64,000 bases of DNA from Eubacteriales bacterium. Lineage in GTDB: Bacteria; Bacillota; Clostridia; Lachnospirales; Lachnospiraceae. The translations under genes and the position numbers were made by a program. The notes below the pieces were generated by a model. It searched no databases. It was given only the letters and a program-made list of their open reading frames with translations, and was not told the origin of the DNA. Location: NCBI GenBank assembly GCA_030524545.1, contig JAUNGM010000010.1, positions 62,001 to 126,000 on the forward strand, written 5' to 3'. This document shows, in pieces, positions 1-13,217 of the stretch (position 1 is its first letter; each line of letters starts with the position of its first letter).

Positions 1-335
1 CTTCCGAGAAAATTCATATCAAAGATAATATTTTCATATTCCATACGTTTTTGCAGGATGCCCCGAAGTCCGTGAAGGTGCCCAGGTAAAACAAGAAAGA
101 TATCCCCTTCCTTTGCCGTGTAGGTTGTAAAATCCACCTGTACAGTCCCGCTCCCACGTTTTATATAAATGATTTCCACGCTGTCCTGCCAGTGCAGAGG
201 GACAAAGGTAAAATCCGCAGGAATCGTACAAGGATAGACATTAAATGCAAACATTGTATCAGAGTGACGCTTGGTTTCCTGGTATGCAGGATTTTTTATA
301 AGCGTCGTATTTTCAATATTTTTCAAATTTTTCAT
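1..335 (-). CDS. AraC-family transcriptional regulator, N-terminal sensor part (cut by window edge)
   Basis: The reading frame starts at ATG 335-333 behind a GAGGGA ribosome binding site and runs off the left edge of the window, giving about 111 residues. The protein has the look of an AraC-type cupin sensor domain: a conserved LHWQDSVEIIYIKRG stretch, then VQVDFTTYTAKEGDIFLVLPGHLHGL-like spacing that places a His near the end of a beta-barrel strand pair, as in sugar-responsive AraC regulators. The DNA-binding helix-turn-helix half would lie outside the window, so the class is inferred from the sensor domain only. It is divergent from glycogen phosphorylase; whether it regulates that gene cannot be told. 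Confidence 0.75.
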   Translation of the reverse strand, partial: MKNLKNIENTTLIKNPAYQETKRHSDTMFAFNVYPCTIPADFTFVPLHWQDSVEIIYIKRGSGTVQVDFTTYTAKEGDIFLVLPGHLHGLRGILQKRMEYENIIFDMNFLG

Positions 336-547
336 AATATTCCCTCAATTTTATTTATATTAATGATGATAGGATTGTATTATATTTTGGTGGCATTATA
401 CAAGCATTTTTTAAAATAATGTATTAAAAATAATATATAGCAGTTGGGAATGCCGCAATTCATTCTGGAACGACGGCATGTAAGTTTGGGGTCTGTTGGG
501 GACAGAGGGTTCATTTCACATTGCGTAAAATGAAAGGAGATTTTATC

Positions 548-2830
548 ATGATGAAAATGAAGAACGTCAAAGAAATCGAAGCAGCTTTAACAAAAGCCTG
601 CAAAAAAGAAATGGAACAGTGTTCCTATGAAGAATTATACACAGCACTGCTTCATATCGTGGAAGAGGAAAGTGAAAAGAAGGCAGAGCCTGTAAAAGGG
701 CGTAAGCTTTACTATATATCTGCAGAATTTCTGATCGGTAAATTATTGAGCAACAATCTTATTAACCTTGGGATGTATGATGATGTAAAAGCATGTCTGG
801 AAGCACACGGTAAATCCATGTCCGATCTGGAAGAGGTGGAGCCGGAACCGAGCCTTGGCAACGGAGGCCTGGGAAGACTGGCAGCCTGCTTCCTGGATTC
901 TCTGGCAACCCTGAACCTGCCGGGCGACGGCATTGGCCTGCGTTATCACTGCGGCCTGTTCCATCAGAATTTTAACAACCAGCTTCAGAACGAAACACCG
1001 GATTTCTGGCTGGGCGGAGACGACTGGGCAAGAAAAACGGAAAAGACCTATACCGTATCCCTTGCAGGCAAGGACTATACAGCACGGCTTTACCAGCTTG
1101 CAGTTACCGGATATGAGGGCCGAACCAATTTCCTGAACCTTTTTGACCTGGATACCATTGACCCGTCTGTGATCGGCGAGGGAATCTCCTTTGACAAGAC
1201 TGATATTGAGAAAAACCTGACCTTATTCCTTTATCCGGATGACAGCGATGATGCGGGACGGCTTCTGCGGATCTACCAGCAGTATCTGATGGTCAGCGCA
1301 GGTGCGCAGATGATTCTGGAGGAATGCATGGAGCGCGGAAGTAATCTTCATGATCTCGACCAGTACGCAGCCATCCAGATCAATGATACCCATCCGTCCA
1401 TGGTGATTCCGGAGCTGATCCGCCTTCTGTGCGAAAAGGGAATTGATTTTGACGAAGCCACAGAAATCGTGACAAAGGTATGCGCATATACGAACCATAC
1501 CATTCTTGCGGAGGCACTGGAAAAGTGGCCGAAGCATTATCTGGATACGGTCGTTCCGCAGCTCATGCCGATCATTGAAAAACTGGACGCGATCGTGCGC
1601 ACCAGAACGGAAGATACCTCCACAGCCATTATTGACGGCTATCAGACCGTACACATGGCGCATATGGACATTCATTTTACGCACAGCACAAACGGTGTTG
1701 CAGCACTTCACACGGAAATTCTGAAGAACAGTGAGCTGAACAACTTTTACAGGTTATATCCGGAGAAATTCAATAATAAAACAAACGGCATTACCTTCCG
1801 CCGCTGGCTTCTGAAATGTAATCCTGAGCTGACAGACCTGATCGAAAGCCTCATCGGCCCGGGCTTCAAGAAAGATGCATCCGAGCTGGAAAAGCTGATG
1901 GATTTTGTAAATGACGAAAAGGTTCTGGCAAAGCTTGAGGATATTAAATACGATAACAAAGCGGCCCTTGCAGGGTGGCTTGCGCATACCCGGAATGTAA
2001 CCGTGAACCCGGAGAGTATGTTCATGATCCAGTCCAAGCGTCTGCATGAATACAAGCGCCAGCAGTTAAATCTGCTGTACCTGATCCATCAGTATTTTGA
2101 GATCAAGGCGGGACATATGCCGGAGAAACCGATTACCGCGATCTTCGGCGCCAAAGCTGCACCTGCCTATACGATTGCGAAGGACATCATCCATGCACTC
2201 TTAACTCTGTCAAGGGTATTTGCGGACGATAAGGAAGTGTCCCGGTGGATGCAGATCGTATTTATCGAAAACTATAATGTGACCGCAGCAGAAAAGATGA
2301 TTCCTGCATGTGACCTTTCCGAGCAGATCAGCCTGGCCTCCAAAGAAGCTTCCGGTACAGGCAACATGAAATTCATGCTGAACGGCGCCCTGACACTGGG
2401 CGCTATGGATGGAGCAAACGTGGAAATCGCAGAAGCCGTAGGAAACAATAACATCTATATTTTCGGACAGAGCAGTGACCAGGTGATCCGCCGCTACCGT
2501 AACGGCGACTACTGTGCAAGAGAATGGTATGAAATTGACCCGAATATCCGAAGAGCCATTGATTTCCTTACCAGTGAAGAAATGCTTGCCCATGGGAAGC
2601 AGGAAAACCTGGAGCGTCTCAAAAACGAGCTGATCTGGAAAGACTGGTTCCAGACATTGCCTGACTTCAATGCATACATTGTCCGCAAAAACCAGGCAGT
2701 TGCCGACTACGCCCGGAACCCGAAAGACTGGACACGCAGAACCCTGATCAATATCAGCAAAGCCGGTTTCTTCTCCTCCGACCGTACCATTGCAGAGTAC
2801 AATGACGATATCTGGCATTTAGGTAAATAA
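548..2830 (+). CDS. glgP: Glycogen/alpha-glucan phosphorylase
   Basis: Glycogen phosphorylase (GT35) releases glucose 1-phosphate from the non-reducing ends of glycogen or maltodextrin using phosphate and pyridoxal phosphate. The protein (about 760 residues, normal for the short clostridial form) shows the N-terminal YYISAEFLIGKLLSNNL and PSLGNGGLGRLAACFLDSLA motifs, the ATIQINDTHP-type motif (here AAIQINDTHPSMVIPELIR) and the pyridoxal phosphate motif EASGTGNMKFMLNGA with the cofactor lysine at about residue 608. ATG 548 is chosen because AAAGGAGA lies at the right distance; an upstream in-frame TTG at 521 has no such site. It is monocistronic, with its own terminator, and acts in the cytoplasm. 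Confidence 0.95.
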   Translation: MMKMKNVKEIEAALTKACKKEMEQCSYEELYTALLHIVEEESEKKAEPVKGRKLYYISAEFLIGKLLSNNLINLGMYDDVKACLEAHGKSMSDLEEVEPEPSLGNGGLGRLAACFLDSLATLNLPGDGIGLRYHCGLFHQNFNNQLQNETPDFWLGGDDWARKTEKTYTVSLAGKDYTARLYQLAVTGYEGRTNFLNLFDLDTIDPSVIGEGISFDKTDIEKNLTLFLYPDDSDDAGRLLRIYQQYLMVSAGAQMILEECMERGSNLHDLDQYAAIQINDTHPSMVIPELIRLLCEKGIDFDEATEIVTKVCAYTNHTILAEALEKWPKHYLDTVVPQLMPIIEKLDAIVRTRTEDTSTAIIDGYQTVHMAHMDIHFTHSTNGVAALHTEILKNSELNNFYRLYPEKFNNKTNGITFRRWLLKCNPELTDLIESLIGPGFKKDASELEKLMDFVNDEKVLAKLEDIKYDNKAALAGWLAHTRNVTVNPESMFMIQSKRLHEYKRQQLNLLYLIHQYFEIKAGHMPEKPITAIFGAKAAPAYTIAKDIIHALLTLSRVFADDKEVSRWMQIVFIENYNVTAAEKMIPACDLSEQISLASKEASGTGNMKFMLNGALTLGAMDGANVEIAEAVGNNNIYIFGQSSDQVIRRYRNGDYCAREWYEIDPNIRRAIDFLTSEEMLAHGKQENLERLKNELIWKDWFQTLPDFNAYIVRKNQAVADYARNPKDWTRRTLINISKAGFFSSDRTIAEYNDDIWHLGK

Positions 2831-2839
2831 AGTAATATG

Positions 2840-2887
2840 AAAAAGCAGCGCCTGCCGTTTTGTTACAGCGGGAGCTGCTTTTTTTCT
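2840..2887 (+). terminator. Intrinsic terminator of glgP
   Basis: AAAAGCAGC and GCTGCTTTTT arms separated by a 24-base loop and ending in a run of T, nine bases after the glgP stop codon. Confidence 0.8.
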
Positions 2888-3003
2888 AAATCGTTTTGGA
2901 GTCCGCTGGGAAAATATGAAAATACCTACATTTGTCCTGGCTTCTATGTTATACTTCTAAAGAGAGGGCAAATGATGCAGGCAGGCCGCAGAACAGATTG
3001 AAA

Positions 3004-4323
3004 TTACCCGGAATACCTTTCTTCGGCTATATTGGCCAGCTCTTCAATGGCATAAAGCGGCAGGTTCAGAAGCCATCCCTCATCGCGATAGTCGGCCATA
3101 GAAGTACGTACAGAGAGCCTGGGATGAAATTTTTCTTTATAAGTTTTCAGGCTTTTGGCTCGGAGATTGACCTCTGCCTTTACTTCTACGGGCATGACCG
3201 ATTCGCCGTTGTCTACCAGAAAATCAATTTCACAGGAGCCGCGGTCATTTGTGTAATAGTATGTGTGAAAGGCGGGGATAGCGGCAAGCTGCTGCATAAC
3301 ATATTGTTCCGTAAGTGCGCCTTTAAATTCGATAAACAGATCATTGCCGTTAAGTAATACCTGCTGGCGCAGGCCGGTCATGCATCCGAGAAGCCCTACA
3401 TCCACAATAAAAAGCTTAAAAGCTTTTAAATCCTCATAAGCTTTCAGCGGCAGATTTGGACTGCTGACACGGCTTACTTTATGGACAAGGCCGCAGTCAG
3501 ACAGCCACATGATCGCCGCTTCATAGTCCTTAGCCCTGCCGCCTTCCCTGACAAGGCCGTAAAGGAATTTTTTATTTTCTCTGGCAAGCTGGGATGGAAT
3601 ACTGTTCCAAAGCATACGAATCCTCGGTACGATTTCATTGGGTGCATGTTTCGAAAAATCCTGTTCATAGGCTGCCAGAATTCTTTTCTGCACCTCACGG
3701 GCTTCGTTGAAATCGCTGTTCTCTGAAAAACGCAGAACGGCCTCCGGCATACCGCCTACAAAATAATAATACTTTAAAGAATCAACAAAGGTTTGCCGGA
3801 AATTGGTGATCATGGAGAAATCCTGCTGAGATAATAATTCAGCGAAGCGTTCCTTTCCTGTGGCAATCAAAAATTCTTTGAAAGACAGAGGATACAGTTT
3901 CAGGAAATCCACTTTGCCAACAGGGAAGGAAGTTCCGCTGTGCAGGGCAATTCCCAGCAGAGAGCCGGCGCAGATAATATGATATTGCGGGGCGTTTTCG
4001 CAGAAATATTTCAGGCTTGTAAGCGCCTTCGGAACTTCCTGTACTTCATCAAAAATAATCAGGGTATTTTTAGAATCAATTTTTTTTCCGGCATACAGCT
4101 CCAGGCCCAGAATGAGTCGGTCTGTATCCAGATCTGCTGAAAATAATTCTGCCATTCTGGAATTGGAGTCAAAATTAATGTAAACGGTATTCTGGTATGC
4201 CTCCCGGCCAAATTCTTTCATTAGCCAGGTTTTTCCCACCTGACGGGCACCTTCAATGATTAAGGGTTTACGATATTTATCCTTTTTCCATTTATAAAGA
4301 CTTTCCATTGCAAAACGATACAT
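3004..4323 (-). CDS. AAA_14/DUF4143-type ATPase (first copy)
   Basis: A predicted ATPase of the widespread AAA_14 plus DUF4143 architecture. The N-terminal part has a Walker A motif (GARQVGKTW, about residues 25-33) and a Walker B motif (TLIIFDEVQEVPKAL), followed by the sensor-like ICAGSLLG. The C-terminal DUF4143 part ends in a PD-(D/E)XK-like pattern (CEIDFLVDNGE ... VMPVEVKAE), a fold often linked to nucleases; activity has not been shown for the family, so the role stays unknown. ATG 4323 is preferred; a GTG at 4335 and TTG at 4329 lie closer to the AGGAGG and cannot be excluded. It is monocistronic and preceded by a set of phased repeats (4382-4490). Such genes are often acquired and present in several copies; a second, distinct copy lies at 19251. 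Confidence 0.85.
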   Translation of the reverse strand: MYRFAMESLYKWKKDKYRKPLIIEGARQVGKTWLMKEFGREAYQNTVYINFDSNSRMAELFSADLDTDRLILGLELYAGKKIDSKNTLIIFDEVQEVPKALTSLKYFCENAPQYHIICAGSLLGIALHSGTSFPVGKVDFLKLYPLSFKEFLIATGKERFAELLSQQDFSMITNFRQTFVDSLKYYYFVGGMPEAVLRFSENSDFNEAREVQKRILAAYEQDFSKHAPNEIVPRIRMLWNSIPSQLARENKKFLYGLVREGGRAKDYEAAIMWLSDCGLVHKVSRVSSPNLPLKAYEDLKAFKLFIVDVGLLGCMTGLRQQVLLNGNDLFIEFKGALTEQYVMQQLAAIPAFHTYYYTNDRGSCEIDFLVDNGESVMPVEVKAEVNLRAKSLKTYKEKFHPRLSVRTSMADYRDEGWLLNLPLYAIEELANIAEERYSG

Positions 4324-4381
4324 AGACAAATACACCTCCTGATTGCTTCCTAAATTTAGTATATCACTTATTGCGTAAAAT

Positions 4382-4492
4382 ACAATGAAAAAAAGCTGAT
4401 AGAAAACAAAAATAACAATGAAAAAAACATAATAGTAACAAAAATAACAACGAGAAAATGTGTAATGACAACAAAAAATGCAACGAAAAATT
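4382..4492. repeat. Phased A-rich direct repeats upstream of AAA_14 gene
   Basis: Four degenerate repeats of an ACAAYGAAAAA core begin at 4382, 4415, 4447 and 4480, i.e. 33, 32 and 33 bases apart, close to three helical turns. The stretch lies directly upstream of the minus-strand ATPase gene and reads as T-rich motifs in that gene's direction. It could hold a multi-site operator or intrinsically bent DNA. There is no gene in it. Confidence 0.6.
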
Positions 4493-4587
4493 TCCTATAG
4501 CAAATTACTGTAAAAAGGATTATACTGAAAACCAGTATTTATCTGAGCGGTTGATGCAGAAGATATAGAAAGAGAAAGGAAATCAAC

Positions 4588-5139
4588 ATGGAGATTTTGG
4601 ATGTTGTGGATAAGTGGGGAAGACCGACAGGGGAGTGTGTGGACAGAGAAACGGCACACGCTCTTGGAATCCGCCACAGGACTTCCCATGTGTGGATATT
4701 CAGGAATAAGGACGGAAAGCTCCAGATCCTTCTTCAGAAAAGAAGCGAAGAAAAGGATTCGTATCCCGGATGTTATGATATTTCCAGCGCAGGACATATC
4801 CCTGCAGGAGTGGACTTTATTCCGTCCGCACTTCGGGAATTGAAGGAGGAGCTGGGCTATGAGGCAAAGGCGGAGGAGCTGATCTACTGCGGGCAGAGAC
4901 GTTTTACATTCCAGGGAGAGTTTCATGGGAAGCTCTTTCATGATAATCAGGTAAGCAATGTTTATGCACTCTGGCTAGACCGTGAGCCGGAAGAGTTTAA
5001 ATTACAGAAATCAGAAGTGGCAGAGGTGGCCTGGTTTGATTTCCGGGAGTGCATGGAAAAAGTGGAAAAAAACGAGATTCCATATTGTATTTTCATGGAG
5101 GAATTAAAGATACTGGAAGAGAAGCTTTTCAGTTTCTGA
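4588..5139 (+). CDS. Nudix hydrolase, isopentenyl-diphosphate isomerase-like subgroup
   Basis: A 183-residue Nudix protein of the group annotated as IPP-isomerase-like or YfcD-like hydrolases, with the N-terminal EILDVVDKWGRPTGE segment typical of that group. The Nudix box lies at about residues 69-91: GHIPAGVDFIPSALRELKEELGY-like, of which the REXXEEXG metal-binding core (RELKEELG) is intact while the usual first Glu of the box is Val. Substrate is unknown; these enzymes cleave nucleoside diphosphates linked to other groups. The start is fixed by AAAGGA ten bases upstream. No operon partner: the Wadjet operon begins 106 bases downstream with its own candidate promoter. Confidence 0.85.
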   Translation: MEILDVVDKWGRPTGECVDRETAHALGIRHRTSHVWIFRNKDGKLQILLQKRSEEKDSYPGCYDISSAGHIPAGVDFIPSALRELKEELGYEAKAEELIYCGQRRFTFQGEFHGKLFHDNQVSNVYALWLDREPEEFKLQKSEVAEVAWFDFRECMEKVEKNEIPYCIFMEELKILEEKLFSF

Positions 5140-5176
5140 TATTGGGAGGGAACGGAAAGGTTTTGGGATACGCCCA

Positions 5177-5205
5177 TTGATTTCCATGCTCTTTTTTGCT
5201 ACTAT
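5177..5205 (+). promoter_or_regulatory. Candidate sigma-A promoter of the jet operon
   Basis: TTGATT at 5177, a 17-base spacer and TACTAT at 5200, ending 40 bases before the jetA start. Identified by eye from spacing and consensus. Confidence 0.45.
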
Positions 5206-5245
5206 TTACTGGAACTGAAATAAAGAAAACTACAAGGAGCTTCTT

Positions 5246-6625
5246 ATGTTTCATATCATACCGGACAACTTTTTTGTTCCGTTGTCATCTCCGAATAAAA
5301 TCGTATATTGGGAATGTATCTGCAGGCTGTTCTCCACCATGGAGCATCAGCTTTCTTTTGGTGTGGAGCGAGATGTGTTGGTGGATGAGCTGGAATACTA
5401 TTTTGACCAGGCACAGGCGGCAGAAGCGGTAGAGGAAGAATTTCAGGCCCTGGACAGCAGAGGAAAAGCCAACAGTATGCTGCGCAAGCTGGAATTTTAC
5501 GGATGGATAGAGATTGAGACAGACAAAAGCTACGTACAGAGAGTAAATTTCAAGGAATATGCAGTCCGGCTGGTGAAGACCCTGCTGGAAATCGCAGAGG
5601 GCAGGCAGATCGAGTATCAGGGCTATATCTATACCATTTACAGCCTGGTCCGCAGCAATACCGACCATCCGGGAATTGTGCTGCTTCAGATCCTGGAAAA
5701 CACCGACCTCCTGATCACGGGGCTGAAAAACCTGAATTCCAATATCAAGCATTATATTGATGAACTGACGAAGCACAGCACAGTTGCGGAGATCATGGAT
5801 GCGCTTTTTAATGACTATATCACAAATATCGTGGACAAAGCCTACCATCGTCTGCTGACTTCGGACAATGTTTCTAAATTTCGCCCGGAGATCATTGAGC
5901 GCCTGGAAGGCAAAAGCCGCAGCAAATCGTACCTTACGAAAGCTGCGGAAGAAATTGCCGGAATCAGGGAGATTTCCGCAGAGGAAGGAAAGGAACTGGT
6001 CTATCGCTATCTGCATGAAATCATCGAAGCTTTTCGGAATATGGATGATATTCTGATGGAGATCAACCAGAAAAATACCCAGTACCAGAGGGCTGCCATC
6101 AACCGTGCCAAGTTTCTGCTGTCCGGAAATGAGGATGTCCGTGGACAGCTAAAGGAGATTCTTCTCGGAATCAACGAAGCCATTAATGAAGAACATCTGG
6201 AACTGGGAGGAATCTACAGGATTGAATTTCTGGAGGGACTGATCCGGATTTACCACAGCAGTGTGATGGATGAGAATTCCCTCTATTCTCCTACGGAAGG
6301 ACGCAAAGAATTTGTGCCCCAGCAGCTTGCAGAGGAAGAACCGGATAGGAAGCTGCGCCAGGAAAAAATGCGCAGGCTTGCAGAGAAGATGCAGAGGATT
6401 TTAAGCCCGGAAAAAATCGGAAAATACGTGGAGGAGAACCTGGGAAACCGAAACGAAATGCATGCCGCCGAACTGCCTCTTGAAAATGTGGAAGATTTTA
6501 TCAAGATCATCTATATCCGTCTGTACGGGCAGCGGAAGAATATGCGGTATCAGGTGGAGAGCCTCAAAGAAACGGAGGCAGGCGGATACCGTTTTAAAGA
6601 CTTTATGATTCGGAGGAAGAAGTAA
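5246..6625 (+). CDS. jetA: Wadjet defence protein JetA (kleisin-like, MukF-type)
   Basis: JetA is the kleisin-like subunit of Wadjet, an SMC-family complex that recognises small circular DNA and lets the JetD nuclease cut it. This 459-residue protein matches the DUF5716-type JetA layout: an N-terminal winged-helix-like part (NFFVPLSSPNKIVYWECICR, then RGKANSMLRKLEFYGWIEIE), a long helical middle (about 110-330) and a C-terminal domain that would bind the SMC head. It starts at ATG 5246 behind AAGGAG. Its stop overlaps the jetB start (TAATG). It appears complete, but the partner genes jetC and jetD are broken, so it probably serves no defence role now. Confidence 0.88.
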   Translation: MFHIIPDNFFVPLSSPNKIVYWECICRLFSTMEHQLSFGVERDVLVDELEYYFDQAQAAEAVEEEFQALDSRGKANSMLRKLEFYGWIEIETDKSYVQRVNFKEYAVRLVKTLLEIAEGRQIEYQGYIYTIYSLVRSNTDHPGIVLLQILENTDLLITGLKNLNSNIKHYIDELTKHSTVAEIMDALFNDYITNIVDKAYHRLLTSDNVSKFRPEIIERLEGKSRSKSYLTKAAEEIAGIREISAEEGKELVYRYLHEIIEAFRNMDDILMEINQKNTQYQRAAINRAKFLLSGNEDVRGQLKEILLGINEAINEEHLELGGIYRIEFLEGLIRIYHSSVMDENSLYSPTEGRKEFVPQQLAEEEPDRKLRQEKMRRLAEKMQRILSPEKIGKYVEENLGNRNEMHAAELPLENVEDFIKIIYIRLYGQRKNMRYQVESLKETEAGGYRFKDFMIRRKK

Positions 6626-7239
6626 TGGAATTACTGGACGGGATGATTCAGAAAGAAAAAGACGAATTCAGACGAATCTGCAACCGATTGATCAGTACCT
6701 GCTTTTTGTGCAAGGGAAATGTCACGAATCGGTCGGATTATTATTTTGTACTGAAGCACAGGGAAATATTCCGCAAATATCTCGATGTATTGGGGTACCG
6801 GCTGGAGATCAATGAAGAATACGGTGTGATTCAGCTTACCAGCCCATATCATTATAATCATTTGAACCTGAAGCTCTTTGAATCTGTGATCCTGCTGATT
6901 CTGCGGATCCTGTATGACGAAAAAAAGAGAGAGCTTTCCGTTAGTGACGAGGTGATCGTAAATCTGGGAGATATCCAGGACAAATTTTTAAGCCTGCAGA
7001 TCAGGGATAAGATGATTGATAAAACTACCATGCGCAATGCATTGAGTCTGTTCCGGCGTTTTCAGATCATCGAAACCCTGGACCGGGATCTGGGAAACGA
7101 GGAATCCAGAATTTTGATCTATGATGCAATTTTGCTGGCTGTCCGGGTAGAGGATATCAAGCAGGCCCACGAAAAGCTGGAAGTGTATAGAAAGGGAAAA
7201 GTCAATAATGAAGAAACTGACGAGAATGAAGCTGATTAA
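6625..7239 (+). CDS. jetB: Wadjet defence protein JetB (MukE-like, DUF4194)
   Basis: JetB is the kite-like (MukE-type) subunit that bridges the JetA kleisin and the JetC SMC protein. This 204-residue protein has the size and layout of DUF4194 proteins: helical N-terminus, a winged-helix-like middle (NEEYGVIQLTSP, then a long helix with LFESVILLILRILYDE) and a second winged helix (MRNALSLFRRFQIIETLD). It starts one base inside the jetA stop and overlaps jetC by 32 bases, so the three genes are translationally coupled. It looks complete, which suggests the damage downstream is recent. Confidence 0.87.
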   Translation: MELLDGMIQKEKDEFRRICNRLISTCFLCKGNVTNRSDYYFVLKHREIFRKYLDVLGYRLEINEEYGVIQLTSPYHYNHLNLKLFESVILLILRILYDEKKRELSVSDEVIVNLGDIQDKFLSLQIRDKMIDKTTMRNALSLFRRFQIIETLDRDLGNEESRILIYDAILLAVRVEDIKQAHEKLEVYRKGKVNNEETDENEAD

Positions 7240-9844
7240 CTGGCATCGTTTTACCAACTGCATGATTGATTTCGGAAGTTCCACCCTGATTTCCGGAGAA
7301 AACGGTGCGGGAAAGTCCACACTTCTGGATGCGATTCAATTTGTGGTAAGCTGCTCTGCCAATTCCTTTAATAAGGCAGCCCACGAAAACGGAAAGAGAA
7401 AGCTGACCGGATACATCCGGTGCAAGACCGGAAAAGAAAACCGTCCCTATGAGCGGACGGGGGAGCTGAGCGCCCACATCGCACTGGAATTTTATGAGGA
7501 AAGCAAAGACCGCTATTTTATCATCGGCGCAGCGGTAGATTCCGCATCGGAAGGGCAGGAAACCACAGTCCGTTATCTGATTGACAATAAGCAGCTTACG
7601 GATGATATGTTTTTAAACGGACGCCATGTACGCTCTATTTCGGAATTCCGCACAGCCAATAAAGGGATCAAACAATGGTGCAAGACACAGGCAGAAGCCA
7701 GAAAGATGGTTTTAGCCAGACTTGGCAGGATCGAGGACAAATTTTTCAGCCTGATTCCCAAGGCACTGGCGTTTAAGCCCATTGACGATATCAAAGACTT
7801 TGTATATTCCTATGTTCTGGATGCAAAAGAGGTGAATATTGATGTTCTGCAGGAGAATGTGCGCACCTATCAGGATCTTGAGAGGACGCTGGAATCTGTA
7901 AAACGGCGGATGAGCAAGCTTGAACTGATCGAGAAGCGCCATGAAGAAGTAATGGACTGCCAGCGGAAGGACCGCATGTATGAATACTTTCTGCAGCAGG
8001 CCGAACTGGACATTACAAAAGAAAACATCCGGAAGACAGAAGCACAGATGCACGGAGAGGAATACCGTCTGAAGGAAGTAGAGCGTGACCTTGACGGGCT
8101 TTGCCGGGAACGCGACCAGAAGCAGGAGATGGAGACCAGCCTGCGGGTAGAATTGAAGCAGAATAAAGACTTTCTGGCTCTGGAGGAACAGAAAAAGGAA
8201 CGGGAACGGCTGCGTGCGGAAGAAGAAAAATGCCTGGATGAAAAGAAGGAACTGATGAAAAGTGTCCGGAAGGCAGCAGATGCGGCAGTGAAGCTTCTGG
8301 AAGTATCGGATGTGGACGACTGTATACAGGAATACCGTACCCGGTTAAAAGATATCGAAGCCATTACGGATGTTGCTGAAATGAAGCAGCTCACGGAGAA
8401 CGTCATCAGGTATAAAAATTCCATGTATGGAAAAATCCAGCGGAAGATGGCGGAAGTCCAGGTGGACCTTAACATCCGTAAGCAGGAGCGGGAAGAACTG
8501 ACCAGGAAAATCAGTCGGCTGGAAAAGAAAAAACTGACATATCCGGAAGGCGTAGAGCGGGTCATGACAGCAGTAAAAGAAGAATTTGCCCGTATCGGCC
8601 GTAAGTCAGAACCCTATGTATTGTGTGAGCTGCTGGAAATTAAGGACGAGCAGTGGCGCAATGCCGTAGAGGGCTATCTGAATACGCAGCGTTTCTATAT
8701 CCTGGTGGAGCCGGAGAGCTTTGACATTGCCCTTGGAATTTACGATAAGCTGCGGAAGGAGAAAAAAGCGTACGGTGTCGGCCTGATCAATACCCAGAAT
8801 ATGGAGAAATATGACAAGGCAGAACCGGGGACGCTGGCTTCTGTTGTTACCTCTAAAAATAAAAACGCACAGCGGTATATTCACATGGTTCTCGGAAAAG
8901 TGCAGATGTGTGACCGGTATGAGGATCTGAAAAAATATGCTACGTCCATCACAAAAGAATGTATGCGCTACCAGAACCGGGTAGCCAGTGCCATCAAGCC
9001 GGAAATCTTCAGTGTGCCTTTCATCGGCAGCCATGCATTTAAGGTTCAGTTAGAGCAGGCCAGGAAGCAGAAGGCAGCCTTGGATGTACAGGTAAAAGAG
9101 CTTGAACAGCGGCTGACTGCCATGGATTCTGTGTTTGCACCGTTATCTACAGATGCGGATGTGGACATTAAATACCGCCTGGATATCCTTTCCAATCTGC
9201 GGATGATCCGTCTGGAAATTAAAAAATGTGAGGACAATATCCGGACCCTGAAGAAGAATTCTTCCCTGATTCAGAAGCAGATACAACTGGAAGCTTTGGA
9301 AAAACTGGTGAAGGAGCTTCAGGGAGAAATCAGCCGGAAAAACCAGCAGATTGGCACCATCGGGCAGAGAATCCAGGAAAAGAAGGCAAGAATCGAAGCT
9401 CTTTTGCTGGAACAGGCGGACAGACAGACTGCCGTGGCGGAGCTGGCATCTGCGGCAGGGGATGCCCTGCCGCTCTGGATGAAAGAATATGAAAGCCAGA
9501 CAGGCCAGAAGACCTATGAACAATTCCGGGACAATTATGACCGCAGGCGCAAGGCAAACGAAACCATACGCAAAAATGCGGAAGAGCGGATGGTTGACTG
9601 CATGATCACCTATAAAACAGAGCATGATTTCGGTGCTGCCGCCAGTATGGCAGGCTATCCGGAATTTGCCCTGGAAATCCATAAAGGAATACCTGGAGTT
9701 GGAAGATACGGAAGAAACGGAGCGGCTTATCCGGGCAATCATGGCGATAGAGGAGAACCGGGAGGAAGGATATATCCGCGAGTTTTCCGTCAGATGTTTC
9801 GGAGATACAAAGATGCTGGAAAAGCGGCTGGGACTGATCGGTAA
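7208..9844 (+). pseudogene. jetC: Wadjet SMC ATPase JetC, 3' part deleted
   Basis: JetC is the SMC/MukB-like motor of Wadjet. The N-terminal head is present, with Walker A GENGAGKST at residues 30-38, followed by a long coiled coil, a hinge-like globular region (about 450-590) and the returning coil. At about residue 825 (YPEFALEIHK, near 9685) recognisable JetC ends; the frame then reads 50-odd residues of out-of-frame jetD DNA to a stop at 9844. The family is normally about 1,100 residues. The ABC signature, Walker B and D-loop of the C-terminal head, needed to make an ATPase site, are absent from all frames here. JetC plus JetD together occupy room for about 1,090 residues instead of the usual 1,450-1,500. 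Confidence 0.85.
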
Positions 9845-10484
9845 GATCATGCGGCGGTTTTCGGATGCGTATGAGGATATGGACATCTATGCAATCCTTG
9901 CGGAGCACAGCATATACCACACTCCGAATTACGTGTATATGAAGGGTGCGGGGAGGCTGCGGGCAGGTGCAGGAGAAGCCTGTGATATTGATCTGAGGAG
10001 TCTCAGGCAGGGAATCGGCCTTTCCGGAGAAGACCTGGATAAGCTTTGCTGGACGGATTTATCGGAAGTAACAAGGGTAATTACCATAGAAAATCTGACA
10101 ACGTTTTTCCGATGGGAGGAAGAAAACAGCATTCTGATCTACCTCGGCGGCTACCACAATAATGTCCGGAAAAAACTCCTTCAGAATATCCATGCAATGC
10201 TTCCTCATGCAGAATACCTGCATTTCGGGGATATTGATGTGGGCGGTTTTGAGATTTACAGGGATCTCTGTAAAAGGACGGGGATTGCGTTTCAGCCATA
10301 TCTTATGGGAATCGAACAATTAAAGGAGTACAATGACTGCACCAGAAAACTGACGGACAATGACCATAAACGGCTTGCCCTGCTGATGGAAAAAGAGGAA
10401 GACAGCGGGATTGCTGCTGTTCTGGAATACATGAGCAGACACGGAGTCAAGCTGGAACAGGAGTCCATCCGGCTGAAAAAGTGA
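9678..10484 (+). pseudogene. jetD: Wadjet nuclease JetD, 5' part deleted
   Basis: JetD is the topoisomerase VI-like/TOPRIM nuclease of Wadjet. From about 9678 (SIKEYLELEDTEE) to the stop at 10484 some 268 residues of its C-terminal part are kept, including the TOPRIM pieces VITIENLTTFF and YLHFGDIDVGGFEIY, which carry the metal-binding Glu and the Asp-x-Asp pair. The N-terminal domain (roughly 110-120 residues of a protein usually near 380) is missing. The open frame extends back to an ATG at 9624, but that stretch is jetC DNA read in another frame, with no convincing ribosome binding site. Translation of a stable product is therefore doubtful. Confidence 0.82.
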
Positions 10485-10502
10485 AAATAGAATAGGATTG
10501 CA

Positions 10503-10548
10503 AAATGCCTGCCATACAGAAGGTGTACCTTGTGTATGGCAGGCATTT
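10503..10548. terminator. Near-perfect palindromic bidirectional terminator
   Basis: A 16-base perfect stem (10503-10518 with 10533-10548, AAATGCCTGCCATACA) encloses a loop that itself pairs AAGGT with ACCTT. It sits between the converging jetD remnant and the response regulator gene. T-runs are short on both sides, so termination strength is uncertain. Confidence 0.6.
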
Positions 10549-11362: not shown

Positions 11363-13217
11363 AATATTCCTCCCTTGAGAGATAGATGGGGCCGCCGAGA
11401 ACAAAGGTGGTATTTCCCGGTTCGCTGTTTTCAATCCTGAAAATGGCATTCTCTCCGTAAAGAAGCTTCAGACGGAGATATACATTTTTCAGACCCATTC
11501 CTCCGATTTGCATAGATTTTAATTCTTCATTCATATCCAGATTCTCGTAAAGCGTCATCAGTTCATTTTTCTTTTCATCGGTCATTTTTCCGCCGTTGTC
11601 CTTGATGAGGAGATTCCAGGCATTGCTGGAAAGCCGGACAGAAATGACAAGCTCCCACGGCGGACTCATCTGGAACGCATATTTAAACGCATTTTCTACG
11701 ATCGGCTGTGTGATGAGCTTAGGTATGTAAATGCTCCGGGCTTCTTCAGGGATATCGAGGATGAAATTCAGCTCTTCATCAAAGCGGAGCTTCATGCATT
11801 CCAGATATTGCTTTGTATAAAAAATTTCTTCGCTCAGTGCAACGATCATCTCTTTCGAAGAGGAAATATACCGGAAATAGTCACAGAGCGCATAACACAT
11901 TTTAATAATGTCATCATTCATTCCCTCTTCTGCCATAATGCCCATGTGAGTCAGGCAGTTGTACAGAAAGTGCGGATTGATCAGGGACTGCGTTGCCTGA
12001 AGCTTGGCCCTGGTTTCTTCGCTTCTGGAGAGAAGCACTTCCTGAGAGGTGGAACGGAGCTTTTCGTACATGTTCCGCACAGATTCACACAGCATGGAAA
12101 GCTCTTTGATGTTGCTGTCAGCGGAGGTCAGGTTTACTTTATTTTCGTCCAGCACGCGGTTGATGGTGATCTTTCCCGTAGCTTTGGTGAGCTTCAGAAG
12201 CGGTACTGCCATTCTCTGGGAAATATACATGCAGACAGCAAGTGTGAGCAGGATCGAGAGTACGGCAATCATGCTGAAAGTTGACCGGTAGCTTTTCAGG
12301 GATTCATACACGGCGGCTTTCGGCCTTGCAGCGACTACGCGCCAGTCATAGTTGTCAAGAGAAAGCTGTGTTACCAGGAGATCCTTTCCAAGATCTGTGG
12401 TCAGCATATGGGTTTCGCCGTCTTCCAGATTCTGATTCTGAATGAGCTGACTGTAGTTTTCATCAATTGCATTTTTATCCGTATCATCATAAGGATATAC
12501 CTGCTCATGCCTGGAATTGTAAACGTAGATCCGGCTGTCCGGATTTTGCTGCTCCAATTGCAGGGGCAGTGAAAAAATCGTTTCACAATCCTGGATGACC
12601 TCTACGATTCCCTCAGGATTGCTGATGGCTTCTCCAAAGGTTCTCGTAAGAGAAATAAATTTCTGTGAATTTTTTCTGCCGTCCTTGGAAGGAAGCTCCG
12701 GGTTGACGACCGGATTACTGATGTATTTGTATCCGTGAAGATCCATGGTTGGCTCATACCAGGGAAGGGACTCCAGATCGACGGAGGAAATTCTCTGCCA
12801 GTAACCGACTTCTGCGCAGTATCCGTCCATAGTGTAGAGCTTGATCTCCGATGCGGACTGATAGGCACCGATCATGGCACTGACGATTTCCGCAATGGCA
12901 GTCATCTTCTGATGGGAAGCGGCAATCCTGGTCAGATCCTTATCATCGTCACCATTAATATTAGAAAAATCTTTAAAATTCGATTTGATTGCATTGGAAT
13001 AGACGATATTTATGGAAATTGTGGAAATGTTATCCAACTGAAGCTCTACCGAATTTTTTACGGAGGCACACATGGTTTCCAGGTTATTTCCGGCATCTTC
13101 CATTGCATTTTGGGAGTAATGGGTGTATGTATAAACAAAAAAGATAAACAGAAGAACCAGGATAAATGTACCATAAATTACAAAAAGATAAAGCTTTTGC
13201 GGGTAACGTTTGTTCAT
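11340..13217 (-). CDS. Sensor histidine kinase (YesM-like)
   Basis: A membrane histidine kinase of about 625 residues. One transmembrane helix lies near the N-terminus (LYLFVIYGTFILVLLFIFFV), followed by an extracytoplasmic sensing region of some 250 residues, a second helix (MIAVLSILLTLAVCMYI), a HAMP-like linker, the His_kinase motif INPHFLYNCLTHMG with the phosphorylated His, and an ATPase domain (PIVENAFKYAF, LIKDNGGKM, GGMGLKNVYLRLKLLYG). ATG 13217 is chosen as the first Met of a plausible cytoplasmic N-terminus; GGGGGAG lies 15 bases upstream, which is rather far. It is transcribed with the response regulator and divergently from the sugar-binding protein, whose ligand it may sense. Confidence 0.92.
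   Translation of the reverse strand: MNKRYPQKLYLFVIYGTFILVLLFIFFVYTYTHYSQNAMEDAGNNLETMCASVKNSVELQLDNISTISINIVYSNAIKSNFKDFSNINGDDDKDLTRIAASHQKMTAIAEIVSAMIGAYQSASEIKLYTMDGYCAEVGYWQRISSVDLESLPWYEPTMDLHGYKYISNPVVNPELPSKDGRKNSQKFISLTRTFGEAISNPEGIVEVIQDCETIFSLPLQLEQQNPDSRIYVYNSRHEQVYPYDDTDKNAIDENYSQLIQNQNLEDGETHMLTTDLGKDLLVTQLSLDNYDWRVVAARPKAAVYESLKSYRSTFSMIAVLSILLTLAVCMYISQRMAVPLLKLTKATGKITINRVLDENKVNLTSADSNIKELSMLCESVRNMYEKLRSTSQEVLLSRSEETRAKLQATQSLINPHFLYNCLTHMGIMAEEGMNDDIIKMCYALCDYFRYISSSKEMIVALSEEIFYTKQYLECMKLRFDEELNFILDIPEEARSIYIPKLITQPIVENAFKYAFQMSPPWELVISVRLSSNAWNLLIKDNGGKMTDEKKNELMTLYENLDMNEELKSMQIGGMGLKNVYLRLKLLYGENAIFRIENSEPGNTTFVLGGPIYLSREEYYAEHPQL

Follow-up and report, generated by a model that had tools for sequence, protein, structure and literature searches.

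The 64,000-nucleotide stretch of DNA analysed here (the window) contains an operon for a type I Wadjet system (JetABCD) that, judging from comparison with related genomes, was very probably inactivated by one recent deletion of 1176 bp, a lesion known from one draft assembly. The genes jetA-jetB-jetC-jetD form a single run on the plus strand at positions 5246-10484. Their best PADLOC models are, in order, JetA1, JetB1, JetC1 and JetD1, which identifies the locus as a descendant of a type I system. The gene order, the full-length JetA and JetB, the N-terminal part of JetC and the C-terminal part of JetD all agree with type I Wadjet. In contrast, JetC lacks its C-terminal ATPase half, JetD lacks its N-terminal third, and the jetC and jetD remnants are joined out of frame. 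The host genome is a draft assembly of 4.34 Mb in 76 contigs, of which the window represents C60:62001-126000.

The first two genes are complete, as a preliminary description of this DNA had stated. Specifically, jetA (5246-6625, plus strand) encodes a kleisin subunit of 459 amino acids that matches PADLOC JetA1 (E 1.5e-182, profile positions 5-466 of 467) and Pfam PF18982 (E 1.5e-125). The adjoining jetB (6625-7239, plus strand) encodes a KITE subunit of 204 amino acids that matches JetB1 (E 6.5e-77, positions 2-201 of 202) and Pfam DUF4194 (E 9.5e-32). The JetA and JetB proteins of the sister operon (L019) have the same lengths, with 90% and 96% identity, respectively. The preliminary description gave the operon as 7208-10484, an interval that covers jetC and jetD only and omits its true start at 5246. 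A sequence scan returned three promoter-like sites (shuffle mean, 7.2) and six terminator-like sites (shuffle mean, 5.1).

The jetC remnant (7208-9674, plus strand) corresponds to residues 1-822 of about 1078 and matches the PADLOC JetC1 profile over positions 1-836 of 1097, in agreement with the earlier proposal that the gene ends near residue 825 without a signature or Walker B motif. It retains the Walker A region, the coiled coil and the hinge, but the C-terminal ATPase half is gone, such that the set of Walker A, signature and Walker B motifs that makes up a whole JetC ATPase head is not present. Pfam recognizes AAA_29 at residues 4-60 and, barely above the cut-off, SMC_hinge at 472-572. 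No Walker B match is found in the remnant by Pfam, whereas JetC from L019 has SbcC_Walker_B at 948-1034. An out-of-frame tail of 56 amino acids, including the junction codon, follows at 9675-9844 (plus strand; stop at 9842-9844), and the jetC open frame spans 7208-9844 overall, or 878 amino acids.

The jetD remnant (9675-10484, plus strand) encodes the last 269 of about 414 residues. It matches the JetD1 profile from position 140 to 407 of 409, consistent with the previously suggested loss of the N-terminal domain, and its Toprim-type JetD_C domain is preserved (Pfam E 4.2e-19). The N-terminal 145 residues are missing and only the end of DUF3322 is left, and thus the combination of N-terminal domain and Toprim nuclease domain that defines a complete JetD is absent. 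A search of solved structures returned nothing for JetD and only MukB for JetC.

Comparison with the nearest operon, which resides in a genome marked as belonging to the same genus (G024), locates the deletion precisely. A first gapless blastn block aligns window positions 5712-9674 with positions 5-3967 of the sister sequence (L003) at 81.6% identity, and a second aligns 9675-9958 with 5144-5427 at 76.3% identity. The skipped stretch, L003 positions 3968-5143, is 1176 bp long, within the 1.1-1.2 kb estimated earlier, and the same length is absent relative to L019. The junction therefore falls at 9674|9675 (plus strand). The preliminary description was correct that the pieces meet out of frame, although it had placed the meeting point at 9678-9690. 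In the sister, the missing stretch encodes the C-terminus of JetC and the first 145 residues of JetD, and includes the overlap between the two genes. By eye, it also encodes SGGE and FDEAFNNMDD, which we take to be the signature and Walker B motifs. Although 1176 is divisible by three, the pieces meet out of frame because the overlapping jetC and jetD genes are read in different frames.

The missing 1176 bp have no match anywhere in the organism's own assembled genome (0 of 1) in a nucleotide search. When the same query was applied to nine genomes, it was found in its source (G024) and in all seven other operon-bearing relatives, at 75-78% identity across most of its length, and was once more missing from the organism's own genome. 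These seven relatives serve as positive controls for the absence, and relocation of the segment to another part of the genome was rejected on this basis. Collinearity with the sister, together with the lack of the segment in the rest of the assembly, bears out the original claim that an internal deletion joins jetC to jetD.

Bases in the window fit the sister jetC up to 9674 and the sister jetD from 9675, with both fitting at only a single near-edge base. Alignment with complete operons, which the preliminary description had called for, thus recovered the missing segment and no shared run beyond single bases at the two edges. This comparison relies on a sister that is about 18% diverged, and the true ancestor may have had a few shared bases there. 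A deletion between visible direct repeats was considered and rejected, as none occur at the edges. The lack of a visible repeat would fit illegitimate end joining or a junction formed at very short microhomology.

A family of naturally shorter JetC proteins could also produce a gene of this appearance. The JetC remnant was matched in 17 of 98 genomes including its own, and eight of the others share about 60-85% identity with it along almost its whole length. These eight and L028 (Candidatus Fimimorpha) constitute the compared set of nine relatives; L027, which is on the same contig as the G024 operon, and the remaining eight matching genomes (25-44% identity over the matched part) were set aside. 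In all nine, JetC (1078-1100 amino acids) and JetD (410-531 amino acids) are full length. None naturally lacks the domains in question, and a naturally shorter family was rejected among the relatives compared. The disabling lesion is absent from every one of these intact operons, which marks the copy in the window as a pseudogene. Neighbourhoods of 12.7-20 kb around the relatives' operons were compared with the first 24 kb of the window. Leaving aside the operon itself, the upstream phosphorylase is the only window gene with a strong counterpart there (86%, in L019). Given how few flanking genes are shared, the operon seems to have a different genomic position in most of the relatives.

JetC searches of the organism's own genome return this locus only. 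One SbcC_Walker_B match is present elsewhere (C2:212-397), within a frame of 1091 amino acids to which none of the nine intact JetC proteins has a convincing match (best E 0.026). This frame was therefore rejected as a second JetC or as the missing piece, and it appears to encode another protein bearing a Walker B motif.

Compared with the split from the sister, the deletion looks like a recent event, because the remnants carry no other stop or frameshift and have accumulated no significant excess of amino-acid changes. Specifically, there is no stop in 5,262 bp of remnant sequence. Under a model of neutral decay in which a transition is weighted four times a transversion, and in which jetA and jetB are assumed to decay freely once jetC is broken, the chance of observing zero stops drops to 5% once about 0.018 substitutions per site have accumulated. 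An excess on the window branch was not significant in any of eight tests using L020 or L021 as the outgroup (two-sided p 0.12-0.38). The summed amino-acid changes on the window and sister branches are 49 versus 64 and 46 versus 55, whereas three single comparisons lean in the opposite direction (jetD, 13 versus 8 and 12 versus 7; jetB, 5 versus 1 with L021). Relaxed selection, as proposed previously, is not supported as a long-standing condition, given the intact frames and the lack of a significant rate excess.

The fresh appearance of the remnants would also be expected if the operon of the species were intact and the deletion were confined to the assembly or the sequenced culture. We consider this very unlikely. 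The assembly is a draft of 76 contigs, and a report on Clostridium cellulovorans describes a mutant that had spontaneously lost Wadjet after Cas9 editing, as well as loss of a cas region upon sub-cultivation (PMC12287153). However, the junction is in the interior of a contig of at least 126 kb, no repeat that might cause a misjoin is visible at the deletion edges, and the missing 1176 bp have no counterpart in any other contig.

A functional or dominant remnant is likewise unlikely from the available sequences. The preliminary description proposed that JetA and JetB could act as a module, either dominant or separate, and truncated JetC might be part of it. In another version, the JetD fragment could be translated to yield a nuclease free of its N-terminal inhibitory domain. 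Every remnant frame is still open, and dN/dS between the window and the sister is low (jetA 0.042, jetB 0.019, jetC remnant 0.076 and jetD remnant 0.079), though these values are rough because dS exceeds 1. Moreover, an ATG in the jetD frame is located at 9849, four bases beyond the stop of the truncated jetC frame. However, low dN/dS is equally expected if nearly all of the divergence predates a recent deletion. No obvious ribosome-binding site is seen by eye ahead of the ATG, and this codon is not new because it specifies the M of an IMRRF stretch that is also present in L019 and L021 (but not in L020). None of the nine relatives has a remnant-like form. Overall, it is hard to credit that either the module or the uninhibited nuclease operates in this organism.

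Loss of activity through the deletion is the far better supported reading. In a review, all four Jet subunits are reported to be required, and DNA cleavage is reported to depend on a functioning JetC ATPase (PMC10586767). On this basis, there is strong reason to infer that Wadjet should be inactive here. Through a single 1176-bp cut, jetC would have lost its 3ˊ quarter and jetD its 5ˊ third, together with the overlap between the two genes. Without the half that carries the signature and Walker B, JetC would presumably form no working ATPase head. JetABC could then no longer extrude DNA, leaving a cell without Wadjet activity. Deletion of jetABCD in C. cellulovorans is reported to have increased plasmid uptake by about five orders of magnitude (PMC12287153). 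The same source describes the delta-engE/2 strain, which resembles the present case in that a spontaneous chromosomal deletion removed Wadjet from a member of the Clostridia. The two differ in that about 23 kb and all four genes were lost from delta-engE/2, as opposed to 1176 bp within the operon here, and in that the present example comes from a public genome.

We also examined whether the genome has accumulated plasmids, since the preliminary description had suggested that the inactivation allowed plasmids or mobile elements to be kept. In Bacillota, jetABCD and plasmids smaller than 40 kb are described as nearly mutually exclusive (PMC12287153), and a deletion favoured for letting a small plasmid be kept is therefore conceivable, although unlikely. 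The plasmid content was compared by way of three marker families. The organism's own genome has one Mob_Pre and one RepA_N match, located within 1.1 kb of each other on a contig of 20,136 bp (C21) whose ends do not overlap. A stretch similar to C21 (88%) is found inside a 407-kb contig of G036, and thus the C21 marker region looks like an integrated mobile element. In the intact relatives G007, G012, G024, G026, G029 and G036, there are 1, 0, 5, 0, 0 and 3 Mob_Pre matches and 4, 0, 3, 0, 2 and 6 RepA_N matches, respectively. These searches covered six of the eight intact relatives of the same genus (all except G045 and G052). Rep_1 matched no genome and no control and hence is uninformative. 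With counts of one and one inside the ranges of 0-5 for Mob_Pre and 0-6 for RepA_N, there is no excess and no sign of plasmid accumulation, in what is a weak test on drafts that can miss plasmids. Within these limits, the comparison does not favour the suggested retention of plasmids.

Contig C21 (L035) has additional features. Positions 1-4251 are occupied by a mobile element in which RepA_N and Mob_Pre are accompanied by a recombinase-like ORF, and this initial 4.25-kb part shares 97% identity with a section of two Campylobacter jejuni plasmid records. Between 8115 and 12676, uvrB-like sequence is present near 8492 (by eye) and at 12246-12328 (one uvrB-annotated match). The two uvrB-like pieces are separated by two other large ORFs, possibly reflecting an insertion at uvrB.

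Broken Wadjet loci were also sought in three sampled and overlapping surveys of JetC at the levels of order, family and phylum, each of which included the organism's own genome. Intactness was judged in these surveys from JetC alone. The order survey yielded 52 JetC matches in 51 of 392 genomes, and the clearly short examples are the present locus, G357 and G192. The G357 match comes within 11 bases of the end of its 3,373-bp contig, and a match that ends slightly early (G403:C108, 1018 of 1078) was encountered in both the order and family surveys. In the family survey (108 of 397 genomes), G525 is the only interior truncation established besides our own. Matches in G726 and G496 (two pieces) stop at contig ends, and those in G646, G572, G740 and G517 start within 79 bases of a contig start, as judged from coordinates only. 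Two matches within one long frame were counted as intact (G631 and G566), and G449, whose partial match within a long frame is weak, was left uncounted. The phylum survey (58 of 398 genomes) revealed interior lesions in G892 and G1080 besides our own. In this survey, G1067 is spread over two contigs and was left uncounted, and G858, G924, G1102 and G1130, each with two matches in one long frame, were counted as intact.

The JetC sequences of G192, G525, G892 and G1080 resemble the present case in being incomplete or frameshifted in ways that are not explained by a contig end, but their lesions are of other kinds. In G192 (L030, G192:C89 1-3492, minus strand), JetB (profile positions 1-163 of 214) is fused to JetC from position 262. 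JetC therefore lacks about the first 261 profile positions, or the Walker A half, and the contig stops short of the JetC C-terminus and jetD. The five-contig genome G525 (L042, G525:C1:658000-676000, at 8653-10513) has only JetC positions of about 844-1088 and a full-length JetD; this remnant is roughly the part of JetC that is lost in the window. G892 retains JetC positions 717-873 and JetD in two pieces. In G1080, jetC is frameshifted close to position 119 and no PADLOC model matches the next ORF upstream; a draft error is possible in this genome. From their sequences, these loci look degraded in other ways rather than representing an alternative functional form. Among the literature matches listed, no naturally deleted, frameshifted or degraded Wadjet locus is described in the titles or the beginnings of the abstracts.

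The locus described here belongs to a known defence system, and this copy was broken recently, which is an ordinary kind of loss. A more far-reaching and doubtful proposal is that, in gut Clostridia, small deletions crippling the JetC ATPase have caused repeated and recent losses of Wadjet, such that species are mixtures of ON and OFF states and the OFF state is selected when a useful plasmid arrives. If so, the locus in the window would be an OFF allele caught soon after its origin. On a practical level, Wadjet calls made from jetA or jetB matches alone would wrongly score this genome as protected. The operon would represent a naturally inactivated allele of a strong barrier against plasmids, for which intact sister operons are at hand, and in this sense it is a natural knockout. 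If the deletion is real in the population, strains with deleted and intact operons could be used to test the effect of Wadjet on plasmid carriage in the gut.
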